Translations under genes and position numbers: made by a program
The notes under the pieces: model-generated
What the model was told of the DNA's origin: nothing
The model's database searches: none
Seen by the model: only the letters and a program-made list of their open reading frames with translations
In this document: positions 8,901-36,115 of the stretch, in pieces
How positions within the stretch are numbered: position 1 is the stretch's first letter
Layout: each line of letters starts with the position of its first letter
Origin: a virus
Length of the DNA: 48,260 nt
Direction: 5' to 3' (one strand)
Virus record (IMG/VR): IMGVR_UViG_3300032282_001387
Location: 1 to 48,260 of that record

Positions 8901-11900
8901 TCAAAGCGATGGCGCGTGACCTTGTGCAGCAGATTGAAGCTGGCAATGAACCCAACCAGTTTGACCTGCGTGATCTGAATGAAAAGATTCGCGGCTTTGA
9001 GGAAGCTGGGCAAAGCGTAACCCGTCCCGGTGCTACCCCGGAAGAACTGCAACGCACCAGTGCGCAGCAGCAAGGCACGTTGTTCCCAGAAGCCGAAGTG
9101 GCTGTTGGTCGTGCTACGCCTGCCAACTTCCAGCGCATGCTGGACTCCAAGAACATTCAAGGTCTGCGTCAGGCTATTGCTGACCAGAAGCAAGCCAACA
9201 TTGATGTGTTGCAGGACTTGCAAAAGACCATCCCCAGCGCCCAGAACTTGCTGGCCAAGGCTGAGATCAAGACCATCAAAGCACGAGCCAAAGTCAAGAC
9301 GTTGGACGAGCGGGCTAAGGAAGACCAGACCGACGAGGAAATCAAAAAGGCTTGGGCCGATGCAGCGCGTGAAGTAATTGCTGCCGAAACTGCGATGCAG
9401 TCTATTCCACGACGCATGGCGTACCTGATTGAAATTCGTGACAGTCTGGCTAAGCTGAACAAGACCGACAAGCAGACGCTGATTGCGTTGATTGACGAAG
9501 CGTTGAACTTTGCTTCTAACCCTGACACGCCTGCGGCTTTGCGCGACAGCTTGGAAGTTAAAGAGTTCAAGGAACTTAAACAGTGGCTTGATGCCGACAA
9601 AGTGAACGCTGAGATTAAGCGTCTGGACAATCTGTATAAAGCGGCCAAGAAAGCCGTTGAGCCTGCCCGTGCCAAGCTGCAAGCTGCGCTGGACAAGTAT
9701 GACCAAGAAGGTCTGATCCGCGAGTCGTTGGAGCGCGAGCACCAGAAAGCACTGGATGCTTTGAAGAAGGCCGAAGCTGCTGAGCGCGAAGCTAAGAACG
9801 CTGTGCGTGAGCAGGAGCAGGAAAACAAAACGGTTGAAGAAGACGCCAAGGAAACCGATCGCAAATACAAAGAGGCTTTGCTGCGTGCCCAGTCGGGTAT
9901 GGGCTTGCCCGGTATTCGTGTTGAAGAAGACATGGCAGCTATGCGCAAAAAAGTGCAAGGACTGCGCGGTGCTATGGGTTCCTTGGAAGATCAGGTCAAC
10001 GCAGAAAAAGACCCGGTGCGCAAGCAGGAACTCCAAGAGAAGTACCTTGCCAAGCAGCAAGAGTTGGAGCAGCTTACCCCGCCCAAGCAAGTCACCGAGC
10101 TTCGCACCCCAGAGGCAGAGCAAACAGCCAAGGAAGCCGAAGACCGTGCTGCTGCACAGCAAGCAGGCATTGATGCACGCCGTCGTGCCCGTACTGGTGA
10201 AGCCGCACCGAAGTTACCCACACGTCTGCAAGGCCCGGTGGCCCGTCTTGGCACAACCCAGCGCATTACACAGACTGGCACCAAGCGCGATAAAGATAAC
10301 GTCCGTCGTGCCGAACAGATTCTGAATGTGGTGACCAAGAGCCGCGCTGACCTTAAAGAGTTGCAAGACCGGATGAAGTTCTTGCGTGACACTGGCAAAG
10401 CCAAGGTGTCCAACCGCTACACGCCGCTGTTCAAGAAACTGGAAACCCGCGAGGATCAGCTTAAGAACCGTTTGGCTCGTGCAGAAAAAGCGCAGGCCAA
10501 AGTGCAGACAGAGCAGAAACAAACGTCTGAAGCCCTTGCATCCAGCCAGCGTCAAGCGAAGCCCTACAAGAAAGACGTGGTGTACCGCCCAGTTTCTGCG
10601 GAAGGGCCGGGCATGCAGACCGCTGCGGTTAAACGCCTGTTGGCGCGTCTTACTGAGGGTTGGGAGAATGTACCGCCAATTGAGGTGGTGGACAGCTTCG
10701 ATGGCCTGCCTGAAGCCATCAAGGAACAAGCCCGTGCAGATGGCGTAGCTGGGCAAATCCCCGGCTTGTACGACCCAGAAACCAACAAAGTGTATCTGGT
10801 GGCTGACCGTCTGCATACCGGCGAGGATGTGGTGGCGACTGTTGCCCACGAGGTGACAGGTCACTTTGGCCTGCGCAGCATGCTGGGCCGTGACTACACC
10901 GCCAAGATGGATGACATTTACAACGGCAACGCTGCGGTACGTGCGCGTGCTGACGCCAAGCTGGCTGAGATGCCGTCCCTTACACAGCAGACTGCCACTG
11001 AGGAAGTGTTGGCTGAGATGGCTGAACAGCCGCCCACAGAGGACACACGCTCGGCTCTGCGCAAGATATTCGATGCCATCAAGGACTGGTTCAAGCGGTT
11101 CACTGGCGAAACCGTGTCGGACGCTGCCGTGCAGCAGATCGTTGCCAATGCCCGCAGCCATGTGATTGAGGGTGGTGAATCTAGGATCGGCGAGGTGAGC
11201 GGCAAAGCCTTGTATCGCAGTCCTGCGCCTACGTACGCCAACCCAACTCTGGCCCGTGCTGGAGCCGTTGCCAACAAGACGATTGCCAAGCAGCGTGGGG
11301 TAATGGATGCCATTAAAGAAGAAGGCGCTGGCCTCAAGCTGATGACTCAGTTTGTTGACCGCTTTGCCCCGCTGGAGAAGTTGTCCAAGTACATGGAAGG
11401 CCACAAGGGTCTTCAGATGATGTACTACGCCCGCATGTACGACCAGCGCATGAACTTCGTGTCGCAGTCTGTGGGCAACGGTGCCCTGCGCCGTGTGGAG
11501 AAGACGCGTCCTGATGGCAAGAAAGAGTTCATCATTGAGAGTACGCCCGGTGCCAGCCTGAAAGGTGTGGTGAACATTCTCAAGCGCGGTAATGATCTGG
11601 TCGGCAGCGCCGAGGGCAACAGCCAGTTGTTCTCCATGTACCTGATTGCCAAGCGTGCTGAGCGTGTGGGTCTGGCTAAACTGAACTATGGCGGTCAAGT
11701 TACCGAAGCTGACCTCGATGACGTGCGCCGTGCCGTTGCTGGCACGCCCGGACTCAAAGCCATCTACGATGCAGCGCAGAGCGAATACAACTCTTACAAC
11801 CGTGACATGCTTCAGTTTGCTGTGGACTCCGGTGCACTGTCCGCCAAGACCCGCGAAGAACTGATTAAGGCGGGTGACTATGTGCCGTACTACCGTGAGC

Positions 11901-13804
11901 GTAACGGTGCGGTTGAGATGATGCTGGGTAACAGCACGATTGCCCGAATTGGCAATACCAAAGAGCAGCCGTACCTGAAAGAGTTGACCGGTGGCGAGAC
12001 ACCTATTCTGGACTTCATGACCAGCGCGGTGCAGAACACCAACATGTTGACCGACATGTCCCTGCGCAATTTGTCCACTAAGAACGCGGTGTATGAACTG
12101 CAAGCACTGGGCATGGCCAAGGTCGGCAAGGGCAACGCAGCGTCTGGCCCCAACGTGGTCAAGTACAAGGAAGACGGCGAAGACAAGTTCGCTTTGCTCG
12201 ATACCGAAGACGTGGTTATTAACGGCAAGCGTTATCCCACTGGCATCCCGGCTGATCTGGTGGTCAAGGGCATGGAGGGCATCCCTGTTCAGAACACCAT
12301 CATTACCAAGCTGATGGGCGGCCCTGCCCGAGCATTGCGCAAGTTCGTGGTGCTCAACCCTCTGTACGCTGCGCGTCAGTTGTTCCGTGACTCGTTGGCT
12401 GCACCCATGCTGTCCGGTGCTGACTTTGCTCCGATCTTTGGAGCGTTGAATGAGGTTGGTTCTGCCACAGGCAAGACACTGACACAGCGCGGTGTTACTG
12501 GCGGTCAAGTGTTTACCGGTACGCAGGAAGACTTGACCATGATTCTGCGGAACATGGCGGCTAACAAGTCCGGTTGGGCCGAAGGTCTGGCTAAGCTGGA
12601 AGCCATGTCGATGGAAGCCGATGCGCTGACTCGTCGTGCCCAGTACAACAGCTACATCAAGCAGGGTCTGTCTGAGATGGAAGCCACGTACATGGCGCTG
12701 GAGTCTATGAACTTTGGTAAGCGCGGCATGAACCCGGCTATGCACACGCTGTCTACAGTCATCCCCTTCTTCAACGCGCAGTTGCAGTCGCTTAACGTGC
12801 TGTTCAAAGCCTTCAGTGGCAACATGCCGTTCAATGAAAAGTTGAAGATTCGTGAGAAGCTGTACGAGCGCGGGCTGATGCTGGCTAGTATGACGATGGC
12901 TTACGCTGCGTTGATGCAAGACGACGAGACGTACAAGAACGCCACGCCTGAACAGAAGTACGGCAACTGGTTTATCCACGTACCCGGCGTCGAGGAAGCT
13001 GTGCGTGTGCCGATCCCATTTGAGATTGGCTACATCTTTAAGGCCATCCCTGAAGCTATCGTCAACAGCATGATGAACGAGCGCGGTGGCGAGGAAGCGG
13101 CCAAAGCCTTCAAACAGATTGCCTTGCAGATTGTCCCCGGCGGTACGTCTTACGGTATGCCGCAGGCTATGAAGCCGCTGCTTGAGGTTGGCTTGGGCAA
13201 GTCGTTCTACACAGGGCGTGACTTGGAGTCTGCGCATGAGCAGTCGTTGGAGCCGGGCTTCCGTTCTCGTGACAACACCACGGCACTGGCCCGCATGATT
13301 GGTGAGCAATTCAATATCTCCCCGATTAAGTTGGATGCGCTGATCTCTGGCTACTTCAGCACGACTGGTTTGGCCTTGGCTGATGCGTTGAGCTTTGCAT
13401 TGCCCGGCCCCGATGTGGAAGCGCCTACGAAGCGTACGTCTGAGATGCGTTTGGTTGGTGGTTTGTTCCAGCCGAAGGATGCTGGCGGCATCATCAATGC
13501 CACGTACGACCGCCTGAAAGAAGCCAAGCAAGTCACGGATACGTACAAGGACTTGGTTGCCAAGGGTCGCACAGCCGATGCCCAGCGGTACCTGCAAGAA
13601 AACTTGCAACAGTACGCTGAGTCTGGCTTAGAGTCGAAGTTCTCGTCCTACATGCAGAAGATTGCCAAGGCAGAGCAGGCAGTGCGCGGGTCTAAAGACC
13701 TGAGCGCCGATGAGAAGCGTGAGCGTCTCGACCGGCTGCGTGAGTTCAAGATCAACTTCGCTAACGACGTGAGGGCGGCGGCAGATAGAACAGCACCCCA
13801 ATAG
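5969..13804 (+). CDS. Giant internal-virion / polyvalent-type protein with gluzincin-like metallopeptidase motif
   Basis: 2611 residues, the largest gene here. Residues about 90-300 are Gly/Ala-rich and hydrophobic (APNIGATIAGAQAGQRLGG), like membrane-active ejection proteins. About 310-1560 is mostly charged coiled coil. Residues 1627-1632 read HEVTGH, a zinc-binding HExxH motif, followed about 46 residues later by EEVLAEMAE, which could supply the third Glu ligand of a gluzincin. Residues about 1800-2520 resemble the large polyvalent protein domain LPD38: LNPLYAARQLFRDSLAAP near 2127, then PFFNAQLQSLNVL, then hydrophobic helices. Such giant proteins are packaged in podovirus heads and injected with DNA; the peptidase could remodel host wall or host proteins. 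Zinc binding and virion location are inferred. No clear Shine-Dalgarno site precedes the ATG. Confidence 0.8.
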   Translation: MAKYLNLPNGTSVEVPDEMSYGEAMAKAQQQFPEAFAPKEKPRTGIGAALSRGLEGLVSSGQTSYEALTGSPEEAARRGLQRGAKMAEKYPEQVSLEKVKQAYEKSGLLSAAGEALGQVPAALAEQAPNIGATIAGAQAGQRLGGMFGAPGRLIGAGVGAAVPGLAQMFGSNIERQAAEQQKEGKPIEISRGAAAAAAVPQAALDVAGTFIPLGGRLVSKLTGVPEKALVGRTAEQAQKLADERLYTTLAKGLGVGVMAEVPTEVAQQMLERAQAGLSLTSPDALKEYGETAYQVSLLAPLGGAGRVVERAGARADIVQKQQAEMADQRAQEAIDAETAAVAERERKAQPDYALSVEQQYNDLIAKRDEIDARIKAPITKGDLAAEQVRNEAKREKKELLGSDETKSLISEYNQLKSSGAFTQIEADRAAKQAEEKATEQQRLAAELQRLGTQKQQQADTDRRQALLQGQIEGEPEVDLLEAARTRKAFKAPKPTADIQGLVNFLLADPVRAQEALAKRTEFPGLTKQQNEAVLGAVELELQQDREIEAKKAEQRAGMLGTQMAGQANTNLLGAARERGPGAVPEIVGLQRIGEKNRPTETEQGTPSIRKGTVTGEGTQGKLISERLKSAQDMLAEGEEETMSPEDEAMVDNLIKTLPLGDRIIAPGQVQRGEGYSNYAERSNLLTMLKFARETRNRPEAARIIQELRKLETPSEVAGTGEATRAGAENLNEVLGAANMTEARAAEAAAERHINDQNTAMLGYVRFLESMRRGKLVLPQSAQNRLDALRNEYLESHLAELDERRAAFGMPPMADWERGEARARVMEGFNKIEADWGKKETTFDNVLAVQKEIRKNIYDNLTNAAKRFQTEQQNQIAEKTTTGTGRRIATPDNLKLTERKQAESTEDIITRLLDTMGQRQRAVPTAAIKPAQKVGSLADIGKLMEPEKAAGALQPFSAKMVDTLERIQNWLPQTTDAEFKAMARDLVQQIEAGNEPNQFDLRDLNEKIRGFEEAGQSVTRPGATPEELQRTSAQQQGTLFPEAEVAVGRATPANFQRMLDSKNIQGLRQAIADQKQANIDVLQDLQKTIPSAQNLLAKAEIKTIKARAKVKTLDERAKEDQTDEEIKKAWADAAREVIAAETAMQSIPRRMAYLIEIRDSLAKLNKTDKQTLIALIDEALNFASNPDTPAALRDSLEVKEFKELKQWLDADKVNAEIKRLDNLYKAAKKAVEPARAKLQAALDKYDQEGLIRESLEREHQKALDALKKAEAAEREAKNAVREQEQENKTVEEDAKETDRKYKEALLRAQSGMGLPGIRVEEDMAAMRKKVQGLRGAMGSLEDQVNAEKDPVRKQELQEKYLAKQQELEQLTPPKQVTELRTPEAEQTAKEAEDRAAAQQAGIDARRRARTGEAAPKLPTRLQGPVARLGTTQRITQTGTKRDKDNVRRAEQILNVVTKSRADLKELQDRMKFLRDTGKAKVSNRYTPLFKKLETREDQLKNRLARAEKAQAKVQTEQKQTSEALASSQRQAKPYKKDVVYRPVSAEGPGMQTAAVKRLLARLTEGWENVPPIEVVDSFDGLPEAIKEQARADGVAGQIPGLYDPETNKVYLVADRLHTGEDVVATVAHEVTGHFGLRSMLGRDYTAKMDDIYNGNAAVRARADAKLAEMPSLTQQTATEEVLAEMAEQPPTEDTRSALRKIFDAIKDWFKRFTGETVSDAAVQQIVANARSHVIEGGESRIGEVSGKALYRSPAPTYANPTLARAGAVANKTIAKQRGVMDAIKEEGAGLKLMTQFVDRFAPLEKLSKYMEGHKGLQMMYYARMYDQRMNFVSQSVGNGALRRVEKTRPDGKKEFIIESTPGASLKGVVNILKRGNDLVGSAEGNSQLFSMYLIAKRAERVGLAKLNYGGQVTEADLDDVRRAVAGTPGLKAIYDAAQSEYNSYNRDMLQFAVDSGALSAKTREELIKAGDYVPYYRERNGAVEMMLGNSTIARIGNTKEQPYLKELTGGETPILDFMTSAVQNTNMLTDMSLRNLSTKNAVYELQALGMAKVGKGNAASGPNVVKYKEDGEDKFALLDTEDVVINGKRYPTGIPADLVVKGMEGIPVQNTIITKLMGGPARALRKFVVLNPLYAARQLFRDSLAAPMLSGADFAPIFGALNEVGSATGKTLTQRGVTGGQVFTGTQEDLTMILRNMAANKSGWAEGLAKLEAMSMEADALTRRAQYNSYIKQGLSEMEATYMALESMNFGKRGMNPAMHTLSTVIPFFNAQLQSLNVLFKAFSGNMPFNEKLKIREKLYERGLMLASMTMAYAALMQDDETYKNATPEQKYGNWFIHVPGVEEAVRVPIPFEIGYIFKAIPEAIVNSMMNERGGEEAAKAFKQIALQIVPGGTSYGMPQAMKPLLEVGLGKSFYTGRDLESAHEQSLEPGFRSRDNTTALARMIGEQFNISPIKLDALISGYFSTTGLALADALSFALPGPDVEAPTKRTSEMRLVGGLFQPKDAGGIINATYDRLKEAKQVTDTYKDLVAKGRTADAQRYLQENLQQYAESGLESKFSSYMQKIAKAEQAVRGSKDLSADEKRERLDRLREFKINFANDVRAAADRTAPQ

Positions 13805-16839: not shown

Positions 16840-17031
16840 TTATTGGTTCAGGAAAAGGTCGAGTTGGCGGTCGTCTTTGGGAGGGAACTCGTCGAGGGGC
16901 GCGAGTGCCATGAAGCGGCGCAGTAGTTCTGTCTGCCAGTCAATAGGCAGATTTTGATTCGAGTCAATCATCATTGCGCAGTATTTGATGAGTTCCCTGT
17001 TATTCAGGGTGCGAGGTTGTATTCTTGACAT
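16840..17031 (-). CDS. Small hypothetical protein (63 aa)
   Basis: ATG at 17031 with a good GGAG six bases upstream; a TTG four codons earlier would lie on the SD itself. The sequence is polar (SRIQPRTLNNRELIKY at the N-terminus), helical, with an acidic/hydrophobic C-terminus ending LDLFLNQ. Such a QLDLFLNQ-like tail resembles a sliding-clamp-binding peptide (QLxLF), which would fit a replication role. This is an inference from six residues. It overlaps the preceding gene by 28 nt. Confidence 0.6.
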   Translation of the reverse strand: MSRIQPRTLNNRELIKYCAMMIDSNQNLPIDWQTELLRRFMALAPLDEFPPKDDRQLDLFLNQ

Positions 17032-17282
17032 AGCGTTCTCCAAGCGTCTTGTTTGTTTTTGGAATGTTGCATGATATGCAACATGCCCTCTACCCGGTAC
17101 CGGTAAGCTACGAATACCTCTGTGCCCGTAAACCAGTTATAAACGGTCTGACGTGTCACACCCAAGGCATCCGCAATTTTGGTCACGGGGATGTCGTAAT
17201 GAATAGCCCAACGCCCTAGCTGGTTCCCCAGCGTCTTAGGCGTCTTCGCTACATCATCAATTATTTTTTGGGAATAAGCCAT
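17004..17282 (-). CDS. Helix-turn-helix DNA-binding protein (92 aa)
   Basis: Starts at ATG 17282 behind GGAAAG. Residues about 32-52 (PVTKIADALGVTRQTVYNW) form a clear helix-turn-helix of the XRE or Fis-like kind, followed by FTGTEV and a basic helix. It lies within the replication operon and overlaps both neighbours (26 nt upstream, 28 nt downstream), so it is translationally coupled. It could be the regulator that binds palindromic sites in this genome, but nothing in the sequence proves that. The fold is confident; target and role are unknown. Confidence 0.75.
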   Translation of the reverse strand: MAYSQKIIDDVAKTPKTLGNQLGRWAIHYDIPVTKIADALGVTRQTVYNWFTGTEVFVAYRYRVEGMLHIMQHSKNKQDAWRTLCQEYNLAP

Positions 17283-18882: not shown

Positions 18883-19284
18883 TTAGGTTGGTTTGCGAAC
18901 GGAAATGTCGTACTCCGCATTGGAGTTCAGACCGGGTGGCACGAGGCCGGGGTTTTCTTCAAGGAACTGGCTCATGTTGGTTTGGGCAATGCGCTTCTCC
19001 AACAAGTCCACCACGCGATGCTCAAGCACGAACTCTTTGAACGAGTCCCAGTCTTGCGTGTTGTAGCGGGTCTTGACGGATAGAACGACCGTGCCTTCGT
19101 TGGTACGAACAGACGTGACGCCCAGCGCCTTCATCTGATCCTTCATGGCATTTTTCAGTTCGTCTTGCTGCGCCTTGAGTGCTTCCACTTTCGTGTCGTA
19201 CTCTTGGGTAAGCGTTGCTATCTGCGATCGAATCTTGCGGTAGATTTTCGCAAGCCGATCCAGCGGGATCACTTCATCTGACAT
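18883..19284 (-). CDS. Hypothetical protein, coiled coil plus C-terminal beta domain
   Basis: 133 residues; GGAGAAGCAA precedes the ATG. Residues about 8-55 form a strong coiled coil (YDTKVEALKAQQDELKNAMK). Residues 56-130 look like a small beta-rich domain (SVRTNEGTVVLSVKTRY) with a helix and a PGLN turn. The same layout is seen in phage Gp157-like and Gam-like host-nuclease inhibitors, and a position between helicase and SSB-like genes would fit DNA-end or recombination functions. This is analogy of architecture only. Confidence 0.7.
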   Translation of the reverse strand: MSDEVIPLDRLAKIYRKIRSQIATLTQEYDTKVEALKAQQDELKNAMKDQMKALGVTSVRTNEGTVVLSVKTRYNTQDWDSFKEFVLEHRVVDLLEKRIAQTNMSQFLEENPGLVPPGLNSNAEYDISVRKPT

Positions 19285-19315
19285 TTGCTTCTCCTATAAA
19301 GCTGTTTTGTTTTGT

Positions 19316-19366
19316 CTAGGGTTTGACAATGTACTTGGTTTTTCTGCGTAGTGCAACTCCTTTCAT
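19316..19366 (-). CDS. Possible 16-residue peptide coupled to the helicase gene
   Basis: ATG overlaps the helicase stop as ATGA (19366-19363), the same stop/start overlap used by many real genes here. The reading frame encodes MKGVALRRKTKYIVKP and stops at TAG 19316. The product is very basic. There is no separate ribosome-binding site, so expression would depend on reinitiation. It could be chance, but it fills the otherwise empty gap before the next gene's leader. Confidence 0.35.
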   Translation of the reverse strand: MKGVALRRKTKYIVKP

Positions 19367-20919
19367 AAATTTATTTCTGTCTTGAACATGTCGGTCAAAA
19401 GCGAGTTGTCACTCACCTTGCCTTCGAGGGCTTTGAACATTCGTTTCTCAATGGCGCTGCCTTGGATGTGCACCACCGTCACCTTGTCAGAGTCCTGCCC
19501 CTTGCGGTCAGCACGGGCACAGCATTGGATGTATTGCTCAACGCTCATCAGCGGGCCATAGAACACCACCGTGTCAGCAGCAGTTAGGGTAATCCCGTGG
19601 GCTGATGCTTGCGGTTGCATGACCAGCACCCTTGGCTCTGGCTCGTTCTGAAAGCGGTGGATGATCTGACCACGCTTGGATGGCGTCACACTACCGTCGA
19701 TGATCTCAGCGACAATATTCTTCTTGGTCAGGTGGCGGTGGATGGTGTCGATGGCGCTGGTGAACAGCGCAAAGATGATGACCTTGCGGTCTGTCTCTTC
19801 CAACACTTCCTCCAGTACCGACAAGCGGGGCGATGCGTCAAACTCAACCACCTCTTTGTCATCGGTGTAGGCAGCACCACAACTGATTTGCAGCAGCTTG
19901 CTCACAGCAGCGGCAGCGTTCACGGCACTGATGGTTTCCCCGGCAGCTTGCACCAGCATGCGGTCTTTGAGCGTGTTGTAGTACTTGGCTTGCTGCGGTG
20001 TCAGCGGCACTTCACGCGTCATTGTGATGACAGGCGGCAGGTCAAGACACTGTGCCTTGGTGAAACGAATCGCAGGTTGCAGCGCATTGAACACCGTATC
20101 TTTGGCATCGAGTTTGGGTGACCACTTGTACATGCTGATCTTGTTCATCACCTTATCGCGCCACGATGTAAAGAACTTGGGCACACCCTCGGGGTTGACC
20201 AGCTTCGCCAAGCCGTACGCATCGACAGGCGACTGTGACGCAGGAGTACCGGTCATCATCCACAGATATGTGTCGGGCTTGATGATGGAGTTGAGTGACT
20301 TCCATCGTTGCGTTGTGGGCATCTTGTAGGCGTTGGCCTCATCCACAATCACGAGGTCAAAGCGCCCATCGTTGTTCACCTCGTTGGCAATCAGGTTCAA
20401 GCCTTCGTAGTTGGTGATAACGATCTCGTAGTCGTGCTGGATAAGCTCGATACGCCGCGCAGCTTTGGGGTGGTGGGCGATGACCGCAGAGCGGTGAATG
20501 ATGCTGCTGTTGATGTCCCCCATCCATGCGCTGTGCATGATCGACAAGGGGCACAGTATCAATACACGTCGCACCTTACCCAGTGTCATCAGGTAGTCCG
20601 CTGCCCACAGCGCGGAGAGTGTCTTGCCGGTGCCGGGTTCGCTGAACACGAAAGCCCTGCGGTTCATGGTCAGGAAGTCAGCCGTCTCAACTTGGTGCTT
20701 CATGGGCTTGTATCGCCCGGGCCAGTTGTAGCGTTTGGTGATGGGTGAAGGCACGTCCTTCACGCCCAGATTGCGCAGCACCCGCGCCTCGTCTAGACCC
20801 CAGTAAACCGCGACTTCGTACCCACCAGTCACAGGTATGACTTTGTGCTTAGGGATGATGCGGTACTTGTCGGGGTTTCTGGTTCTAAACAGCAGTGCTT
20901 TGTTCTCAACGATCTGCAT
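19363..20919 (-). CDS. SNF2-family DNA helicase / translocase
   Basis: 518 residues, with CGGAGAAAGCA before the ATG. It has all core superfamily 2 motifs: a Q-like lead-in PMKHQVETADF, Walker A EPGTGKT (94-100), motif Ia ILCPLSIM, Walker B VIVDEAN (DEAN 193-196), motif III MTGTPASQSP, motif V QASAHGITLTAAD, and motif VI QYIQCCARADRKGQ. The last is the SNF2/Rad54 signature with arginine fingers. DEAN replaces the usual DEAH, a common phage variant. The likely role is DNA remodelling, branch migration or replication restart. It belongs to the leftward replication operon, following the HNH-like gene. Confidence 0.93.
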   Translation of the reverse strand: MQIVENKALLFRTRNPDKYRIIPKHKVIPVTGGYEVAVYWGLDEARVLRNLGVKDVPSPITKRYNWPGRYKPMKHQVETADFLTMNRRAFVFSEPGTGKTLSALWAADYLMTLGKVRRVLILCPLSIMHSAWMGDINSSIIHRSAVIAHHPKAARRIELIQHDYEIVITNYEGLNLIANEVNNDGRFDLVIVDEANAYKMPTTQRWKSLNSIIKPDTYLWMMTGTPASQSPVDAYGLAKLVNPEGVPKFFTSWRDKVMNKISMYKWSPKLDAKDTVFNALQPAIRFTKAQCLDLPPVITMTREVPLTPQQAKYYNTLKDRMLVQAAGETISAVNAAAAVSKLLQISCGAAYTDDKEVVEFDASPRLSVLEEVLEETDRKVIIFALFTSAIDTIHRHLTKKNIVAEIIDGSVTPSKRGQIIHRFQNEPEPRVLVMQPQASAHGITLTAADTVVFYGPLMSVEQYIQCCARADRKGQDSDKVTVVHIQGSAIEKRMFKALEGKVSDNSLLTDMFKTEINL

Positions 20920-20932
20920 TGCTTTCTCCGTA

Positions 20933-21178
20933 TTATTTTGAACTAGCTCGATTCTTCGCTACGCTTGCCATGCGCAGGTTGCTCCGCGCTGAAGTGCCAC
21001 CGCTCTTGAGGGGCTTGATGTGGTCAACATCTTTGCCGTCGCCCTTGTGTGCTGCGCCTTCCTTCTCCATGATGCGGCGGGCTTTGACCCGTTCTCCGCG
21101 CTTAGCGATTTGCTCGGGCTTACCGTGGAACTCTTTGTACTCTTGCTTGTAGTCACGCTTGCTGGATGGTTGTGCCAT
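20933..21178 (-). CDS. Small HNH-endonuclease-like protein (81 aa)
   Basis: Start at ATG 21178 with a strong AGGAGG. It has a basic N-terminus with a helix, then DVDHIKPLKSGG (D52, H53), followed by SNLRM (N67) and AKNRAS (N76), the core of an HNH betabetaalpha-metal motif. The Cys pairs of larger HNH enzymes are missing. Possible roles are nicking, recombination or host DNA breakdown. Lysine/arginine-rich throughout. Seated between a Cas4-like nuclease and the SNF2 helicase. Confidence 0.75.
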   Translation of the reverse strand: MAQPSSKRDYKQEYKEFHGKPEQIAKRGERVKARRIMEKEGAAHKGDGKDVDHIKPLKSGGTSARSNLRMASVAKNRASSK

Positions 21179-21187
21179 GACGGCCTC

Positions 21188-21853
21188 CTAGTGCTTGGGA
21201 TTAAATTCACAGCCAGTGACTTGGCACCAGCCGCATAGCGGTGTTTGGTTGGGGTTCCACACACCTGTTTCAAAGCAGGCTTCGAGGCGGGCTGTGCGCT
21301 CACGGTATTTCCACCAGAACTGTTCAGCTTGCTCACGCTGCATCTGCATACGAACCATATCGTCTTTGACAATAAACAGCAAGGCGCTGTTGACCTTGCG
21401 GATATGGGGGAAGTGGGCGAAGACCATCAGGGACATGAGCACCAGTTGATCTCGGTCAGGGTAGCGATTGTTACCCGTCTTGTAGTCCACCACCCATGCG
21501 GTCAGGTTGTCGTCATCCACGATCAGCAAGTCAGCGATGCCCCGCACCCACACGTCCGGCCCCTTCCAGTTGGTTGGCTTGAGGTCAGCCGTCAGCGCCA
21601 TCTCGTACTCAGCCAGCTTGCGTCCGGGCTTCTCGATCAGTCGATCGACCACGGCTTTGAACTGGCTGTGCTCGGGAGGGATTGGCTTGCCGTCACGCAC
21701 ATACAACTCAAGAGACTCGTGCACCTGATTGCCGTAGCGTGTGGCCTCTGTCTCTTGGAAGGGATACTTCTTCAAGACCTTGACCTCGTGGTAACGGCGG
21801 GGGCACCCCTCAAAGTCTTTGAGGGAACTGTGTGACCATGCGGGTTTTTTCAT
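21188..21853 (-). CDS. PD-(D/E)xK exonuclease, Cas4/RecB-like, with four-cysteine cluster
   Basis: 221 residues. Catalytic core: GNQVHESLE (H45), GIADLLIVDD (D108) and VVDYKTG (D123, K125), followed by a Gln helix DRDQLVLM. C17 (EGCPRRY) and C207, C210, C215 (CGWCQVTGC) match the layout of the iron-sulfur cluster in Cas4 and AddB-type nucleases. The likely activity is 5'-3' exonuclease for phage recombination or DNA recycling. ATGA overlap with the preceding gene (21853/21850). No CRISPR repeats were seen, so a CRISPR role is unlikely. Confidence 0.88.
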   Translation of the reverse strand: MKKPAWSHSSLKDFEGCPRRYHEVKVLKKYPFQETEATRYGNQVHESLELYVRDGKPIPPEHSQFKAVVDRLIEKPGRKLAEYEMALTADLKPTNWKGPDVWVRGIADLLIVDDDNLTAWVVDYKTGNNRYPDRDQLVLMSLMVFAHFPHIRKVNSALLFIVKDDMVRMQMQREQAEQFWWKYRERTARLEACFETGVWNPNQTPLCGWCQVTGCEFNPKH

Positions 21854-29399: not shown

Positions 29400-30542
29400 T
29401 TAGACCTCGCAGTGCGTTGCGTCAAACAACGATGCGAGGATGGTGTCTACCCCATAGGTATCTGACCAGAGCATAGCGTCTGCTAGTAGCTGCGGCGTGA
29501 GGTCTTTCTTGCTGATGAACCTGCGCGCAAGGTCTGGGTCTTCAGGATACACAGACTCACACATGAGGTCAATCAGGAAGTCTTTGTAGCCACCCTGCGC
29601 ATCATAGATAGCCTCGCGTAGCGTGATGCGGTCGTACTCATCGTCGGATGGGTCAAACGCATAGTTAACATTGCTTGTCCATGACTTGTCTTGCCAGCCC
29701 ATATCCCATGTCTTGTCGTCGTGAGACGCGGTGTCCCACGAACCCCATGACTTGTGCCACTTGCTCTCGTGCACCGTTGGGTCACGGTCGGTAGGCAGGT
29801 TGTCCCAGTCAATGAGCAGGCAGCGGTTGGCTAGTTGCTGCAAGTGGATGATGTCGAGCTTCTCGTTGACCGTGTGCTCTGAGTAGTAACCCACGCTGAT
29901 GTTGGTGCACTCGGGGATGTGGTCAGTGAACTCTGCGGTATCCGTGTACACACCTGTGTCGTCGGGCATATACATGAGCGTCATGTCCTCGTTAAGCTGG
30001 TCGGCCAGCGCCTGCGCAAACTTGTCGGAGCAGCAGCGGCCATACCCTTGGTGAGTAATCACACTGTCGATACCACGACGGTCGAACGCAATGGCACGGT
30101 CGAACTCTTTGAGTAGCTTCTTCTTGTGCTCGGCAACGTGCGTAGCACCGATGCCACCACACTCCTCGCCCTGCGTGAAGATGTAATAGGCGGGCACACC
30201 GTAGTGCAGCAAGTGCATGAGCATGGCAACACCGGCACCGTCATCGGCACCGAGAGGCGCGTCAGCATGGGCATACCATATGCTGTTGGTCTTGCGTATC
30301 TTGTTGGGGCCAGTGACACGGTGCACTGTGTCTACGTGCGCAACGAACAGCGTTCGATTGTGCTTGCCTTGTCGTGCATCGATATGTACGTTACCCGCAG
30401 CGTCGATGTGTGGCTTGCCGAGATGCTTGGGCGTGTTGTTGGTAAGCCAAGCGGTTAGCTCTTGCGTACCGGTGGAGTTATGCGGGCGCTTGATGGACAA
30501 GGCACGCGCAAGGGTTTTGTAAAGCATTGAATGTTTGTTCAT
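29400..30542 (-). CDS. M20/M28-like zinc peptidase with Trp/Asp-rich C-terminal insertion
   Basis: 380 residues, TAGGAGAAATCAA before the ATG; an in-frame ATG at 30530 is an alternative. Metal-site residues are all present: FVAHVDTV (H69, D71), PLGADDGAG (D100 bridging, D101), TQGEECGG (E126 catalytic, E127), AFDRRG (D154) and YYSEHTVNEK (H223). This matches di-zinc aminopeptidases of the M20/M28/M42 clan (PepT-like). Residues about 252-300 form a Trp-rich acidic stretch (KWHKSWGSWDTASHDD) not expected in the family. No signal peptide, so cytoplasmic. Likely substrates are small peptides or an N-acyl metabolite; in a phage this could feed amino acids to replication or remove a signal. It is unusual for an early phage operon. 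Confidence 0.82.
   Translation of the reverse strand: MNKHSMLYKTLARALSIKRPHNSTGTQELTAWLTNNTPKHLGKPHIDAAGNVHIDARQGKHNRTLFVAHVDTVHRVTGPNKIRKTNSIWYAHADAPLGADDGAGVAMLMHLLHYGVPAYYIFTQGEECGGIGATHVAEHKKKLLKEFDRAIAFDRRGIDSVITHQGYGRCCSDKFAQALADQLNEDMTLMYMPDDTGVYTDTAEFTDHIPECTNISVGYYSEHTVNEKLDIIHLQQLANRCLLIDWDNLPTDRDPTVHESKWHKSWGSWDTASHDDKTWDMGWQDKSWTSNVNYAFDPSDDEYDRITLREAIYDAQGGYKDFLIDLMCESVYPEDPDLARRFISKKDLTPQLLADAMLWSDTYGVDTILASLFDATHCEV
29721..29739. repeat. Palindrome-family copy inside the peptidase gene
   Basis: GTGAGACGCGGTGTCCCAC matches the intergenic 19-bp palindromes at 32.0-35.1 kb, but lies in codons of the Trp/Asp-rich insertion. It could be chance or part of how the insertion arose. 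Confidence 0.5.
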
Positions 30543-32050: not shown

Positions 32051-32069
32051 GTGGGACAGTGCGTCCCAC
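32051..32069. repeat. 19-bp palindrome copy 1
   Basis: GTGGGACAGTGCGTCCCAC, 7-bp perfect arms with a 5-nt centre. Directly abuts the stop codon of the gene at 32070-32270. Confidence 0.8.
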
Positions 32070-32270
32070 TCATTCATCGCTGCTCTCTGTCAGCTTGTTG
32101 GCTATCGTGTTGATGACGATGTGCAGTGCGGTGTAGGCACTGATGCGGTCACGTGGTGCGATGCCCCTGTCGATGAGGTGGTAGGCATCTTTGAACGCTT
32201 GCTCGAGGTCTGTGCCTCGGTCTGCGAACAGGCTGTTGCGTAGCTGTTGGGCTAAGTGTTTGTTGTTCAT
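32070..32270 (-). CDS. Hypothetical protein (66 aa)
   Basis: Begins MNNKHLAQQLRNSLFADRG and continues DLEQAFKDAYHLIDRG, then YTALHIVINTIANKL. Amphipathic helices; unknown. ATGA overlap with the preceding gene. Ends exactly at a palindrome. Confidence 0.7.
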   Translation of the reverse strand: MNNKHLAQQLRNSLFADRGTDLEQAFKDAYHLIDRGIAPRDRISAYTALHIVINTIANKLTESSDE

Positions 32271-32533
32271 TTGCTTTCTCCTTCGGTTTCTTCCTCGGTC
32301 TTGTTGCTCAGTGTCACGCCATAAAGCAGGTCGTCCATCATTTGCTCAACGGCAAAGCGGGTGTCCTCGATAAGGTCTGCGACGTACTCGGGCGGGTGGT
32401 TTTCTGCCATTTCCCAAATACATATTTCGTCGTTGTCATCTTTCAAAAGTAATGCAAGCACTTGTTTGTAGCTAACATCCTCGGGGTAGCCAGATAGCCA
32501 CTGATTTAATGCAAACCGTTCACTGTGTTTCAT
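32267..32533 (-). CDS. Hypothetical acidic protein (88 aa)
   Basis: ATG 32533 with AAGGAGAAACAAC. Begins MKHSERFALNQWLSGYPEDV and carries a long acidic helix region (NHPPEYVADLIEDTRF). Serial ATGA overlaps at both ends. Confidence 0.7.
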   Translation of the reverse strand: MKHSERFALNQWLSGYPEDVSYKQVLALLLKDDNDEICIWEMAENHPPEYVADLIEDTRFAVEQMMDDLLYGVTLSNKTEEETEGESK

Positions 32534-32691
32534 GTTGTTTCTCCTTCGGTTAGTTGTTTGAGCACAAGCACTGAGTGGTAGACGTGCCTCGTTGGGTCGC
32601 CGCCCATCACTACGTATGTCTCGTAGTGCTCCTGCTCTTCGGCAAGGTAATAGAGCACCTTCTTGAGTGCGTCCAGTTGTTCGTCGTTCAT
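32530..32691 (-). CDS. Hypothetical protein (53 aa)
   Basis: ATG 32691 behind AAGGAGAAAGCAA. MNDEQLDALKKVLYYLAEEQ then VVMGGDPTRHVYHSVLVLKQ. Two helices; unknown. The longer in-frame version lacks a ribosome site. Confidence 0.7.
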   Translation of the reverse strand: MNDEQLDALKKVLYYLAEEQEHYETYVVMGGDPTRHVYHSVLVLKQLTEGETT

Positions 32692-32879
32692 TTGCTTTCT
32701 CCTTCGGGTGTGTATGCGGGGCAACGAGCGGCAAGGCTGCGACACCGCTGGTCTGCCTTGACGTTCTCCTCGGTATTTTTGGACGTTGGTGCGACCTCCA
32801 TGTCATACACTGGGCACTCAAGCGCGGGGTTGTAACCCCAAGTGTGTCGGGAGTAGTTGCAGTTTCTGCAAGATTTCAT
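32688..32879 (-). CDS. Small Cys-rich protein (63 aa), possible zinc finger
   Basis: ATG 32879 with TAGGAGAAAGCAA. MKSCRNCNYSRHTWGYNP, then ECPVYDM, DQRCRSL and ARCPAYTPE: five to six Cys arranged like a small zinc finger. Ends in an ATGA overlap with the next gene. Confidence 0.7.
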   Translation of the reverse strand: MKSCRNCNYSRHTWGYNPALECPVYDMEVAPTSKNTEENVKADQRCRSLAARCPAYTPEGESK

Positions 32880-32935
32880 TTGCTTTCTCCTAGTTTCAGG
32901 TGCCGACCGTTTGAAGGTAGTACCGGCATGGTGGT

Positions 32936-32993
32936 CGGCGTAGCCATGCTCGATACTCAAAAGAAAACTGCACGGCGTAGCCATGCTCGATAC
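32936..32993. repeat. 21-nt direct repeat pair in intergenic DNA
   Basis: The same 21 nt (beginning CGGCGTAGCCATGC and ending GATAC) appears at 32936-32956 and 32973-32993, 37 nt apart start to start. The left copy also supplies one arm of a 7-bp inverted repeat GCCGACC/GGTCGGC (32902 and 32933). Confidence 0.8.
32959..32986 (-). terminator. Leftward intrinsic terminator candidate
   Basis: Minus-strand GCATGG, CTACG, CCGTGC (one G-U pair) followed by AGTTTTCTTTT. It lies downstream of the gene at 33042-33863. Confidence 0.55.
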
Positions 32994-32997
32994 GTAA

Positions 32998-33016
32998 GTG
33001 GGACACGCTGTCCCGC
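32998..33016. repeat. 19-bp palindrome copy 2
   Basis: GTGGGACACGCTGTCCCGC, 8-bp arms counting one wobble and a 3-nt centre. 25 nt after the stop of the gene at 33042-33863. Confidence 0.8.
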
Positions 33017-33024
33017 CTAAACAG

Positions 33025-33041
33025 AAGATGTTGATAGGGAA
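33025..33041. repeat. 17-nt dispersed repeat, copy 2
   Basis: Identical to 27911-27927 and placed just after a minus-strand stop codon (TAA at 33044-33042). Confidence 0.8.
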
Positions 33042-33863
33042 TTACTCCCCCTCTTGTTTCAATAGCCCGTGCCATGTTTGGGGTAAGGCTGCGTTGTCAC
33101 GTTTGCGGTGTAGGATGGTCTGCGCTTGCTTGATGCGTTGCATCTTGGCTTCGAATGAGCGTTGTGCCCCCTCCACGTCTTCCTGTGTGGTTGGCGATAG
33201 CTCTCTGTCGGTCTGCAACATATCGTAGGCAACTTGCAGGGTTGCGTACTCGTTAGCCATTGCGTCTTCTAATAGGCGGCGTCGTGACCTTGCGCTTGCC
33301 TTGGGCACGATGCGCTGGAAGGGGGCTTTGACCTTGGATTGCTTGCGGTATGGCACAGCCTCGAACAGGGCGGTTACTCGGTCTTTGACCTTCTCAGGTA
33401 CCCAGTCAGTCCAATGCTCAACCCTCGTCACGTAGCGGCACTTGCCTTCTTCCTGTTCCTTGCGCAGTACCTGCAAGGGCGTGTCGTTGGGGTTGCACTC
33501 AACCAGCGTGTCGAACTGCTCGATTAGCTTGCGCATGACTACCATGTACGCTTCATATGCGTCGCGCCTTGTGGTGTCCGTCTCGTCCAGCGTGTCGCCC
33601 CTGATTTCCTTGCGCTTGATGTACTCCAAGGATGAGCGGGTTGTTTCCATCTCCTGCTTGAGTGGGGTGCGCAGGTATCGCCAGTAAGCGACAGCACGGA
33701 AGTGTTTGATGCGCTGGCCTTTGAGCATTGCTCGTTCTCTGCGTACTTCTTCAATGACTTCCTCAATGCGACCCGCGCTGTATTGCAGGGCTTGAAGGGT
33801 CTTGCGTATCTCGTCGAGCGTGTAATGCTTGAACCCCGAAGGGGGTATGCGTGGTCTTACCAT
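33042..33863 (-). CDS. Hypothetical coiled-coil protein (273 aa)
   Basis: ATG 33863 behind CAGGAGAAACCA. N-terminus MVRPRIPPSGFKHYTLDEIR, then mostly basic helix (RRERAMLKGQRIKHF), with a charged loop at 145-180 and a second long helix at the C-terminus (AQRSFEAKMQRIKQAQTI). No membrane segment or enzyme motif. It has its own probable promoter with a palindrome over the start site. Unknown family. Confidence 0.75.
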   Translation of the reverse strand: MVRPRIPPSGFKHYTLDEIRKTLQALQYSAGRIEEVIEEVRRERAMLKGQRIKHFRAVAYWRYLRTPLKQEMETTRSSLEYIKRKEIRGDTLDETDTTRRDAYEAYMVVMRKLIEQFDTLVECNPNDTPLQVLRKEQEEGKCRYVTRVEHWTDWVPEKVKDRVTALFEAVPYRKQSKVKAPFQRIVPKASARSRRRLLEDAMANEYATLQVAYDMLQTDRELSPTTQEDVEGAQRSFEAKMQRIKQAQTILHRKRDNAALPQTWHGLLKQEGE

Positions 33864-33884
33864 TGGTTTCTCCTGTGGTTGAAG

Positions 33885-33903
33885 GTGGGACACGGTGTCC
33901 CGT
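33885..33903. repeat. 19-bp palindrome copy 3
   Basis: GTGGGACACGGTGTCCCGT, located 21 nt before the start codon of the gene at 33042-33863. Confidence 0.8.
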
Positions 33904-33912
33904 TAAAGTATA
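33885..33912 (-). promoter_or_regulatory. Promoter -10 box overlapping a palindromic operator-like site
   Basis: TATACT on the minus strand (33912-33907) would start RNA near 33900, inside the palindrome at 33885-33903. No good -35 hexamer; AAAAAAAGATTC repeats lie there instead. The layout suggests repression by a palindrome-binding protein (inference). Confidence 0.5.
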
Positions 33913-34318
33913 CAAGGTTCACGGAATCTTTTTTTGTCCTCGATAATCTTTTTGTGTCCACACAATATCGAAGGTGCCCTGTTTGCGAGGACATGGCGAA
34001 GCCGCATGAATACTGGGTTTGCGCACTTTGTGTACTGCTATATGCTGTTTGTGGAATGTGCAAAGGGGAAAACACCATAAGCTCATTGTGCTTCGCCGGA
34101 AACACAGACACATAGAGAGAGATATATATTATATTATTTAATAAATATAAATATATTATAGAGAGGGCCAAAAGCGGCATCGCTAGCATCCATGCGGGGT
34201 TGCGCGGGGTTGGGGTGCGCACGACCTTCGATAATGTGTGGACAGTAAAAACACGTGTCACAGAATCTTATTTTTTGCTTCAGAATCTTATGAGTGGGAC
34301 ATCGCGTCCCACTTTTCC
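33904..34318. other. Gene-free AT-rich control region; replication origin candidate
   Basis: 415 nt without a convincing gene. The centre (34111-34166) is nearly pure A/T with GA runs on both sides (ATAGAGAGAGATAT). A 20-nt inverted repeat with one mismatch flanks it: TGTCCACACAATATCGAAGG at 33955-33974 and CCTTCGATAATGTGTGGACA at 34225-34244. Outside this are short direct repeats around GAATCTT: 33924, 33945 (variant AATCTT), 34263 and 34283, spaced about 20 nt within each pair (CAGAATCTTA exact at 34261 and 34281). An AT-rich unwinding stretch with repeats is typical of an origin; a regulatory region is the alternative. Confidence 0.55.
34294..34312. repeat. 19-bp palindrome copy 4
   Basis: GTGGGACATCGCGTCCCAC, 7-bp perfect arms, 6 nt after the stop of the gene at 34319-34519. 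Confidence 0.8.
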
Positions 34319-34519
34319 TCATCGAAACATCCGCAACTGTTTCGATTCGCTCTTGATGGTTTCCCATTCCTGCATTGATTCCTTAACTTGCTGCTGGCGC
34401 AGCTTGGCTTTGCGTTGCTCGAGTGCGCGGGCATCGCGTTTGGCTTCCTCTGCTTGCTTGGCAAAGACCTTGCGCAGTTCGCGCAGTTGTTGCAGGTTGT
34501 GTTGCTTGATGCTGTACAT
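34319..34519 (-). CDS. Small basic helical protein (66 aa)
   Basis: ATG 34519 with TTGGAGTTCACC. MYSIKQHNLQQLRELRKVFA and then an unbroken basic/acidic helix (EEAKRDARALEQRKAKLRQQ) ending QLRMFR. Coiled-coil peptide; possibly nucleic-acid-binding. Unknown. Confidence 0.7.
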   Translation of the reverse strand: MYSIKQHNLQQLRELRKVFAKQAEEAKRDARALEQRKAKLRQQQVKESMQEWETIKSESKQLRMFR

Positions 34520-34529
34520 GGTGAACTCC

Positions 34530-34554
34530 AAAAGAAAAGCCGCACAGTGGCGGC
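34530..34554 (-). terminator. Leftward terminator or attenuator
   Basis: Minus-strand GCCGC, CACTGT, GCGGC followed by TTTTCTTTT, sitting just before the ribosome site of the 34519 gene. The same TTTTCTTTT tail occurs in the terminator at 32959-32986. May attenuate read-through from the gene at 34652. Confidence 0.55.
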
Positions 34555-34629
34555 GGGTTAGGGGAATAGACAAGGTTTTGCATCGCAGGGCAAGCCCTTA
34601 CGCTCGACTCCTGCGAAAAACTCGAACAA

Positions 34630-34648
34630 GTGAGACACGCTGTCCCAG
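34630..34648. repeat. 19-bp palindrome copy 5
   Basis: GTGAGACACGCTGTCCCAG, one mismatch in the arms, 3 nt after the stop of the gene at 34652-35041. Confidence 0.75.
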
Positions 34649-34651
34649 CAA

Positions 34652-35041
34652 TCAGGCGGCGAAAGCCAGAGCCAAGGCAGTCGAAGCCAACGACTTAGCC
34701 TTCTTGTACTCGTTGCACAAGGCAGCCAGCTTCTCGGCAGCCTTCAGAATCTCAGCGGGCACTGCGACTTCCTCTTTGCGTGCTGATGACTTGCCCATGA
34801 TGTCGTTAATGAGGCGGTTGGTGTATCGCTTCGCAGCGCAGTCGCTGTCTGTCCACTTGCCGTCGACGTATTCCGCACCGTAACGCTTGGCAGCACGAGG
34901 CGCAACGTAGTCTTTCACCGTGTCACGGTCAGCGCCCTTGAGTAGGCGTTGCAACTCTGCGACCTTCTCGCCGTATGTGTCACCGGCTTTGAAAGCACCG
35001 TCGATAGCGTTGTTGATGAGAGTGGTATTGAATGTAGCCAT
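34652..35041 (-). CDS. Hypothetical protein, first leftward gene (129 aa)
   Basis: ATG 35041 with TAGGAGTTCATC. MATFNTTLINNAIDGAFKAG, a central YGAEYVDGKWTDSD segment, and an Ala/Lys-rich helical C-terminus (KAAEKLAALCNEYKK). As the gene nearest the divergent region it is probably among the first expressed. Unknown family. Confidence 0.7.
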   Translation of the reverse strand: MATFNTTLINNAIDGAFKAGDTYGEKVAELQRLLKGADRDTVKDYVAPRAAKRYGAEYVDGKWTDSDCAAKRYTNRLINDIMGKSSARKEEVAVPAEILKAAEKLAALCNEYKKAKSLASTALALAFAA

Positions 35042-35057
35042 GATGAACTCCTAGTAA

Positions 35058-35076
35058 GTGAGACAACGTGTCCCGA
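35058..35076. repeat. 19-bp palindrome copy 6
   Basis: GTGAGACAACGTGTCCCGA, one mismatch in the arms, 16 nt before the start codon of the gene at 34652-35041. Confidence 0.75.
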
Positions 35077-35360
35077 TATCGATTGAAGCCAATCCCCAAC
35101 CGATGTCTCTATTGTACCAAAGGGGGTAGTGTAGCCATAGGTGATTGAATATCCGGCGGCTCTTGACCCCACTACTACCCCACCCCCCAAAGCTCTGAAG
35201 GGACTCCTGCGTCATGACATGAACACTATTCCACACCAACGCTGCACATTTCCCCGCAACTCAACCCCAGAACACCCCCCGGTATGTCGCCTTTTTCAGA
35301 ACCCCCACCCCCTATAAAAATGACCAGCCCCACAATGTCAAACATTTGACAAGCCCAATG

Positions 35361-35509: not shown

Positions 35510-36115
35510 ATGTTGGAACATTTAATCTCTGCCGATTTGAATCCGGTTGTCTTTATGGACACGCCAGATGATTTCTTGCCGCTTGAAAATGCCGACCCCA
35601 GCCAAACCATTGACGCCAAAGTACAAACGGCAGATTGGTTAAAAGATTTGGGATTGGATGACGACCAAGCCAAAGCAGACGCCACAGCACAAACAGCCCG
35701 CGCTGCCTTTGCGGCGCTCACGACCGGCTCTACCCCCGCTTCCATCCAGCAATCCCTGACTAATATCAAAACGCCTGCGGCAGTGCAGCACCTTGTGGGG
35801 ATGTTGACCGCCTATGACTGGGAGTTTGTCGAGCAGGCCAAGGGGTTGCGGGGGTATGCGGTCGCCAAAATACTCGAAGATTGTGAGAATCCGAACCCCA
35901 ATATCAGGCTAAAAGCCTTGGGGCTGCTGGGTAAAGTCACGGAAGTTGGCTTATTCACCGAGAAAATCGAGGTCAAAAAGGTCGATTCGTCAGCCGAAGA
36001 ACTCGAAGAGCGCATCCGCCAGCGCCTGTCCAAGTATTTACCGCCGGTTGTCGAGATTGAAACCGTGCAGGTTAAAGAAATACCCACGCCAACAGACGAT
36101 GCAAGCCCGACCTGA
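35510..36115 (+). CDS. Putative terminase small subunit
   Basis: 201 residues. Chosen start ATG 35510 with GGAGG 11 nt upstream; the frame is open further left but lacks a good site. Begins MLEHLISADLNPVVFMDTPD; the central part (TAARAAFAAL-like helices, then YDWEFVEQAKGLRGYAVAK) and LKALGLLGKVTEVGLFTEKI resemble small terminases of T7-like and pelagic podoviruses (from memory). A charged C-terminus (EELEERIRQRLSKYLPP) may contact the large subunit. It overlaps the large terminase by 17 nt. Confidence 0.7.
   Translation: MLEHLISADLNPVVFMDTPDDFLPLENADPSQTIDAKVQTADWLKDLGLDDDQAKADATAQTARAAFAALTTGSTPASIQQSLTNIKTPAAVQHLVGMLTAYDWEFVEQAKGLRGYAVAKILEDCENPNPNIRLKALGLLGKVTEVGLFTEKIEVKKVDSSAEELEERIRQRLSKYLPPVVEIETVQVKEIPTPTDDASPT

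Follow-up and report, generated by a model that had tools for sequence, protein, structure and literature searches.

Lambdoid phages possess phage-specific hairpin-forming sites (boxB/nut), which are paired with small basic early N proteins; boxB is read mainly via its loop, as RNA. In phage phiC31, many near-identical palindromes of the type CTACTCACGTGAGTAG are located in the gaps between genes. These conserved inverted repeats (CIRs), the operators of the c repressor, are distributed along the whole genome of this temperate phage, and the repressor is long (CDS 19274-21325). The Cluster A mycobacteriophages (L5, Bxb1), which are likewise temperate, contain stoperators, i.e. dispersed repressor sites that stand mostly in one orientation to transcription and whose motif varies together with the repressor between phages (PMC6550527). 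Stoperators are asymmetric 13-bp sequences bound by a monomeric two-domain repressor, and the motifs compared in PMC6550527 resemble each other. According to PMC9283540, the Cluster A repressor halts elongation at these sites.

The window, that is, the whole stretch of 48,260 nucleotides analyzed here, belongs to a clade of uncultured tailed phages. This clade is probably aquatic, judging from its nearest named terminase relatives. Its early region contains a palindrome family whose layout and coevolution resemble those of the phiC31 CIRs and the Cluster A stoperators, although neither its sites nor its protein place it in either system. As in phiC31, many near-identical palindromes occupy gene gaps. 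However, the sites of the clade are restricted to the early region, do not resemble CTACTCACGTGAGTAG and, unlike the CIRs, have arms that differ from phage to phage; the candidate binder, the product of a gene designated gene A, comprises about 130 residues, has no known fold and belongs to no known family. As in Cluster A, the sites are found near gene starts and stops in one orientation to transcription, and their motif co-varies with the putative regulator, here gene A. In contrast to stoperators, they are dyads with far more diverse arms, and no Pfam tyrosine integrase or resolvase was detected in 13 records of the clade, which may be incomplete. Hairpin-forming sites and a small basic early protein are shared with boxB/nut; the loop, however, is free in the clade, and there is no RNA-pairing signature.

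Palindromes of the early region and their distribution

Six sites of the window, beginning at positions 29721, 32051, 32998, 33885, 34294 and 34630, deviate from GTGGGACACGCTGTCCCAC by at most three mismatches; the number expected by chance, as determined with dinucleotide-preserving shuffles, is 0. The copy at 35058 (GTGAGACAACGTGTCCCGA) is weaker, with four mismatches to GTGGGACACGCTGTCCCAC, but its slot is conserved and is occupied by the perfect palindrome GTGAGACACGGTGTCTCAC in L143, a relative that is 60% identical. The palindrome family postulated in the original prediction is thus real. No copies were found in the whole window genome outside a stretch of 5.3 kb. The same scan, applied to phiC31 as a positive control, recovered the CIR de novo in 15 copies.

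If the early-gene strand is read, the palindromes come after stop codons or before ribosome-binding sites. Note that greedy gene calling was unreliable in the short contigs; orientation was taken from the ribosome-binding sites instead. The first slot (35058..35076; early strand TCGGGACACGTTGTCTCAC) is located in the 5' leader of gene A, 16 nt before the start codon and at about +28 to +46 from the expected transcription start. The predicted early promoter upstream of gene A has the -10 box TACAAT (TGGTACAAT; 35111..35116, minus strand), with the same context in L143 and most relatives. The second slot (34630..34648; early strand CTGGGACAGCGTGTCTCAC) directly follows the stop codon of gene A. 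Behind this slot, most relatives possess a G+C-rich hairpin followed by TGTTTCATTCYNTGTCCAA (window ~34540-34620), which is probably an intrinsic terminator. The third slot (34294..34312) directly follows the stop codon of a 67-aa gene and precedes an AT-rich, repeat-bearing gap. The next copy (33885..33903) is 21 nt before a start codon and covers the expected transcription start of the gene for a 273-aa early protein (33042..33863, minus strand), as deduced from the -10 box TATACT (33907-33912, minus strand); in the equivalent slot of L097 and L011, the palindrome comes after TATAATAG. Two further copies follow stop codons, one 3' of the 273-aa gene (32998..33016) and one between small early genes and a 479-aa gene (32051..32069). 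The remaining copy (29721..29739) is within the peptidase gene (29400-30542), and in-gene copies are also present in relatives. All of these placements had been anticipated, namely four copies after stops, two before starts with one of them over a predicted transcription start, and one inside the peptidase gene.

The AT-rich gap between the third slot and the copy at 33885 (33904..34293) is probably a replication origin, as judged from its base composition and repeats. Inverted repeats of the form TGTCCACACA(A/T)TATCGAAGGT flank its AT-rich stretch, and relatives share the layout. Since two palindromes bound this gap and the sites cluster in one part of the genome, they might be targets of a replication, partition or genome-organizing protein (ParB- or nucleoid-like). 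We regard this as very unlikely, given that sites are found at gene starts, at gene ends and over a promoter, with the first in the leader of gene A.

The exact palindrome family was detected in 71 IMG/VR stretches, many with 3-6 copies, by means of a 16-base pattern, which was chosen because the plain GTGGGAC-N5-GTCCCAC gives chance matches. The terminase of the window and the conserved protein adjoining it (35510..36112, plus strand), which served as clade marker and evolutionary control, are encoded in 34 of the 38 array-bearing contigs analyzed, with about 50% amino-acid identity to the window. A search with the terminase neighbor yielded a clade of at least 594 IMG/VR contigs; the 80 relatives that were read are partly fragments and include some loci that are close relatives. 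Nearly every member examined contains 3-8 copies of one palindrome in the same slots of an early region of 3-8 kb; in genomes of 40-66 kb, the arrays are limited to this region. The 104 early regions comprise 383 perfect sites versus 0 in shuffles. When the window DNA, gene A, the clade marker and the 273-aa protein were compared with named and GenBank phages, no match emerged. Such arrays were also absent from the terminase relatives DSL-LC04 and HTVC023P, of which 50 kb each were read, and a literature search with the palindrome letters gave unrelated papers only. Elsewhere in the window, positions 5969-13804 (plus strand) code for a 2611-aa virion protein with an LPD38 polyvalent-protein domain near its end.

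Arm and spacer classes

The sites are dyads with arms of 6-8 bp, whose sequence is specific to the phage. We distinguished at least 17 arm/spacer classes, for example GTGGGACA-N3, GTGGAACA-N3, GGGGAG-N4/5, GGGGAA-N4, GATTCA-N3 and GTTGCA-N3. Between the half-sites lie 2 to 4 nt or more. A change in one arm is accompanied by a change in the other, usually in every copy of one phage, and in 68 of 71 phages the proximal and distal sites are of the same class. For example, the same two paired bases are altered at all five aligned sites when L118 is compared with L131, the flanks being otherwise well kept. From L097 to L011, promoter and gene start are retained while GTGGGACAGCGTGTCCCAC is replaced by GTGTTGCACTGTGCAACGC; another slot contains three different palindromes in L097, L122 and L011. 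Conservation in relatives and covariation of the arms, on which the original prediction had staked the family, were thus both found. Two palindrome classes are interleaved in L011, L122 and L252, which are apparently recombinants; in one slot of L011, GGGGGTAGA-N3 is present as a third type. Many relatives (early regions of L280, L286 and L275) also possess GATTATTGA/TCAATAATC, a second dispersed motif that differs from the palindrome studied here and recurs within genes as well as in gaps.

The mode of change bears on the suggestion, made earlier, of a phage-borne repeat. A selfish, REP-like element spreading in the phage genome would leave near-identical copies scattered in gaps, as is seen here. 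Yet the slots are conserved among phages with different arms, and the sites change by paired point substitutions with intact flanks. Moreover, 34 of the 38 array-bearing contigs represent one terminase clade, and 257 Gb of cellular genomes contained 86 pattern matches, which is near chance, and no arrays. An insertion-type repeat is therefore extremely improbable.

Copies within genes are informative at the codon level. In 19 relatives, the first copy lies in frame within gene A and encodes GGTPCPT. The codons GGT, ACA, TGT, CCC and ACG are fixed and GGG is found in 18 of 19 cases; the central proline codon is free. In contrast to the fixed TGT of the palindrome, the other conserved cysteine of gene A is encoded by TGC in 18 of 19 sequences. 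In L118, the in-gene dyad is kept by the silent change of GGG to GGA and by the change of CCC to TCC, which replaces Pro by Ser. The in-gene palindromes are under selection at the nucleotide level: synonymous codons are frozen, and an amino-acid change can be forced.

Gene A as candidate regulator

Gene A (34652..35041, minus strand) is the first early gene and encodes a basic helical protein of 129 residues, which is a candidate for the palindrome-binding regulator on account of its coevolution with the class. Gene A identity predicts the class with a partial Mantel r of 0.50 (p 0.001), corrected for the terminase neighbor and the 273-aa protein; these tests correct partly for phylogeny, and several loci are close relatives. 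If the class was deduced from distal sites only (>1.3 kb), r was 0.52 (p 0.001) for gene A and -0.21 for the 273-aa protein, whose gene is nearer to those distal sites. Gene B had no effect on the class after allowing for gene A, and the gene A product is the only class-tracking protein among those tested.

Individual pairs illustrate this relationship. In L273 and L275, two control proteins are 98% and 95% identical; gene A products share 16% and the palindromes differ. A GGGGAG palindrome located within a gene of L273 is disrupted in L275, and gene A and palindromes were replaced together. L261 and L285 have 273-aa proteins that are 99% identical and the half-site GGGGAC in common, but two of their sites differ in spacer; outside the shared helix YEACRKALGRT, the gene A products differ. 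GGGGAA and GGGGAG phages are separated by four columns of protein A, among them residues 81 and 88, which lie on one face of helix 80-98. As the palindromes change in concert with gene A, this first early gene probably encodes a palindrome-binding switch protein.

Protein A is uniformly basic (median pI 9.6), and its models are helical with a mean pLDDT of 83-86 (86 for the window protein) and a pTM of about 0.6. It has no family relative in Pfam, PHROG or PDB and no recognized DNA-binding fold. A fold search with two models gave no significant PDB match, and BFVD returned only unnamed proteins of uncultured phages. Relationships between distant gene A subfamilies are weak, and the first-gene proteins of the GGCGGAA, GGGGGAA, GGACAA, GTTGCA and GATTCA classes were outside the recruitment by the gene A profile. 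The tail of protein A is modular: the C-terminal part (columns 150-200 of alignment A2) comes in at least three types that look unrelated and are joined to different N-terminal parts.

Two other proteins were considered as recognizers and rejected. The 273-aa protein had been suspected for its fast evolution; it is conserved without tracking the palindrome class and reaches 99% identity in phages whose classes differ. The small HTH protein (17004..17282, minus strand), named as regulator in the original prediction, is contradicted by its recognition helix RQTVYNWF, which is the same in phages with very different palindromes. This HTH protein is conserved in the clade (L311-L320) and is perhaps a late-gene regulator.

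DNA operators, RNA hairpins and the proposed mechanism

The majority of sites belong to transcribed leaders, gaps or gene ends and have a constant orientation to transcription, which is evident from the asymmetric outer bases. In the GGGACA classes, the right outer AC is more constant, and the window copies are not fully symmetrical either, the right half being GTCTCAC at 35058, 34630 and 29721 (early-gene strand). In most classes the hairpins are stable (-9 to -16 kcal/mol) and have loops of 3-4 nt. These properties would suit an RNA target, in which protein A or another factor binds hairpins of the early message and controls translation, processing or antitermination, comparable to boxB or coat-protein hairpins. 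However, one-sided changes comprise 16 A-C and 13 G-U pairs, and this lack of a G-U bias favors DNA dyads over RNA hairpins. At the flanking pair outside the core, C-A (84) exceeds T-G (46), and the two sides are independent without covariation, which fits two half-sites that each accept a pyrimidine. Furthermore, the loop is the unconserved part, the GATTCA hairpins are weak (mean -5.9), the sites of L254 and L261 have centers of two nt, and the L305 site is upstream of its promoter. The RNA-hairpin option of the original prediction is therefore disfavored, and we consider an RNA target unlikely. DNA operators are ranked first and an RNA target second because of the missing G-U bias, the independence of the flanking pair, the two-nt centers, the L305 site and the weak-hairpin class.

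Hairpin shape would also be expected of intrinsic terminators or of stabilizing or processing hairpins that have no specific partner, and in L110, and partly in L037 and L058, the stem is preceded by an A-tract and followed by a T-tract. The window copies, in contrast, lack a T-run, and none appeared in the terminator scan; the palindromes belong to no Rfam family. Such a role would leave the identical arms within each phage, the change of class with gene A and the in-frame copies unexplained, and is highly improbable.

Of the options originally offered, operators of a phage regulator are thus best supported. The palindromes are likely to serve as dispersed DNA operators for a regulator that each phage encodes itself, in gene A. 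We infer from the sequence comparisons that protein A would bind the sites, would do so as DNA, and would thereby repress or block transcription. Several observations count against this reading. Protein A lacks a recognized DNA-binding fold, and the pTM of its models is about 0.6. Half-sites spaced 2 to 4 nt or more apart are unusual for a single family of dimeric proteins, and a simple dyad leaves the directional asymmetry of the outer bases unexplained.

According to the proposed mechanism, gene A would be transcribed early after infection, and its product would bind the copy in its own leader and limit its own synthesis. Binding to the copies at the starts, ends and gaps of other early genes would lower or block early transcription. 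Autoregulation combined with repression or roadblocking is suggested because the regulator's own gene contains the first copy, in its leader or its body, and the others are located over a promoter, behind stops and before later genes. Protein and sites would diversify fast, such that a change in the specificity of the protein is followed by the copies of the genome.

A further point against the operator reading is that neither an integrase nor a lysogeny gene was detected, so that the reason for which phages usually possess many repressor sites does not apply here. Tentatively, and with less confidence than in the operators themselves, it can be imagined that these are virulent phages with private operator sets and a matching regulator from an undescribed DNA-binding family, whose many mutually blind specificities arose from competition between co-infecting relatives. 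This would correspond to an immunity-type specificity without lysogeny.

With at least 17 protein/operator specificities that appear to be matched, found in more than 80 related phages, the clade offers a natural series in which neighboring pairs differ by one half-site base pair or by the length of the spacer and the candidate protein family has no known fold. The evolution of a DNA-recognition code thus becomes directly testable, as does the question of why operators should diversify in phages that lack detectable lysogeny genes. At the same time, the first early gene of this very common clade of uncultured phages is given a likely role.
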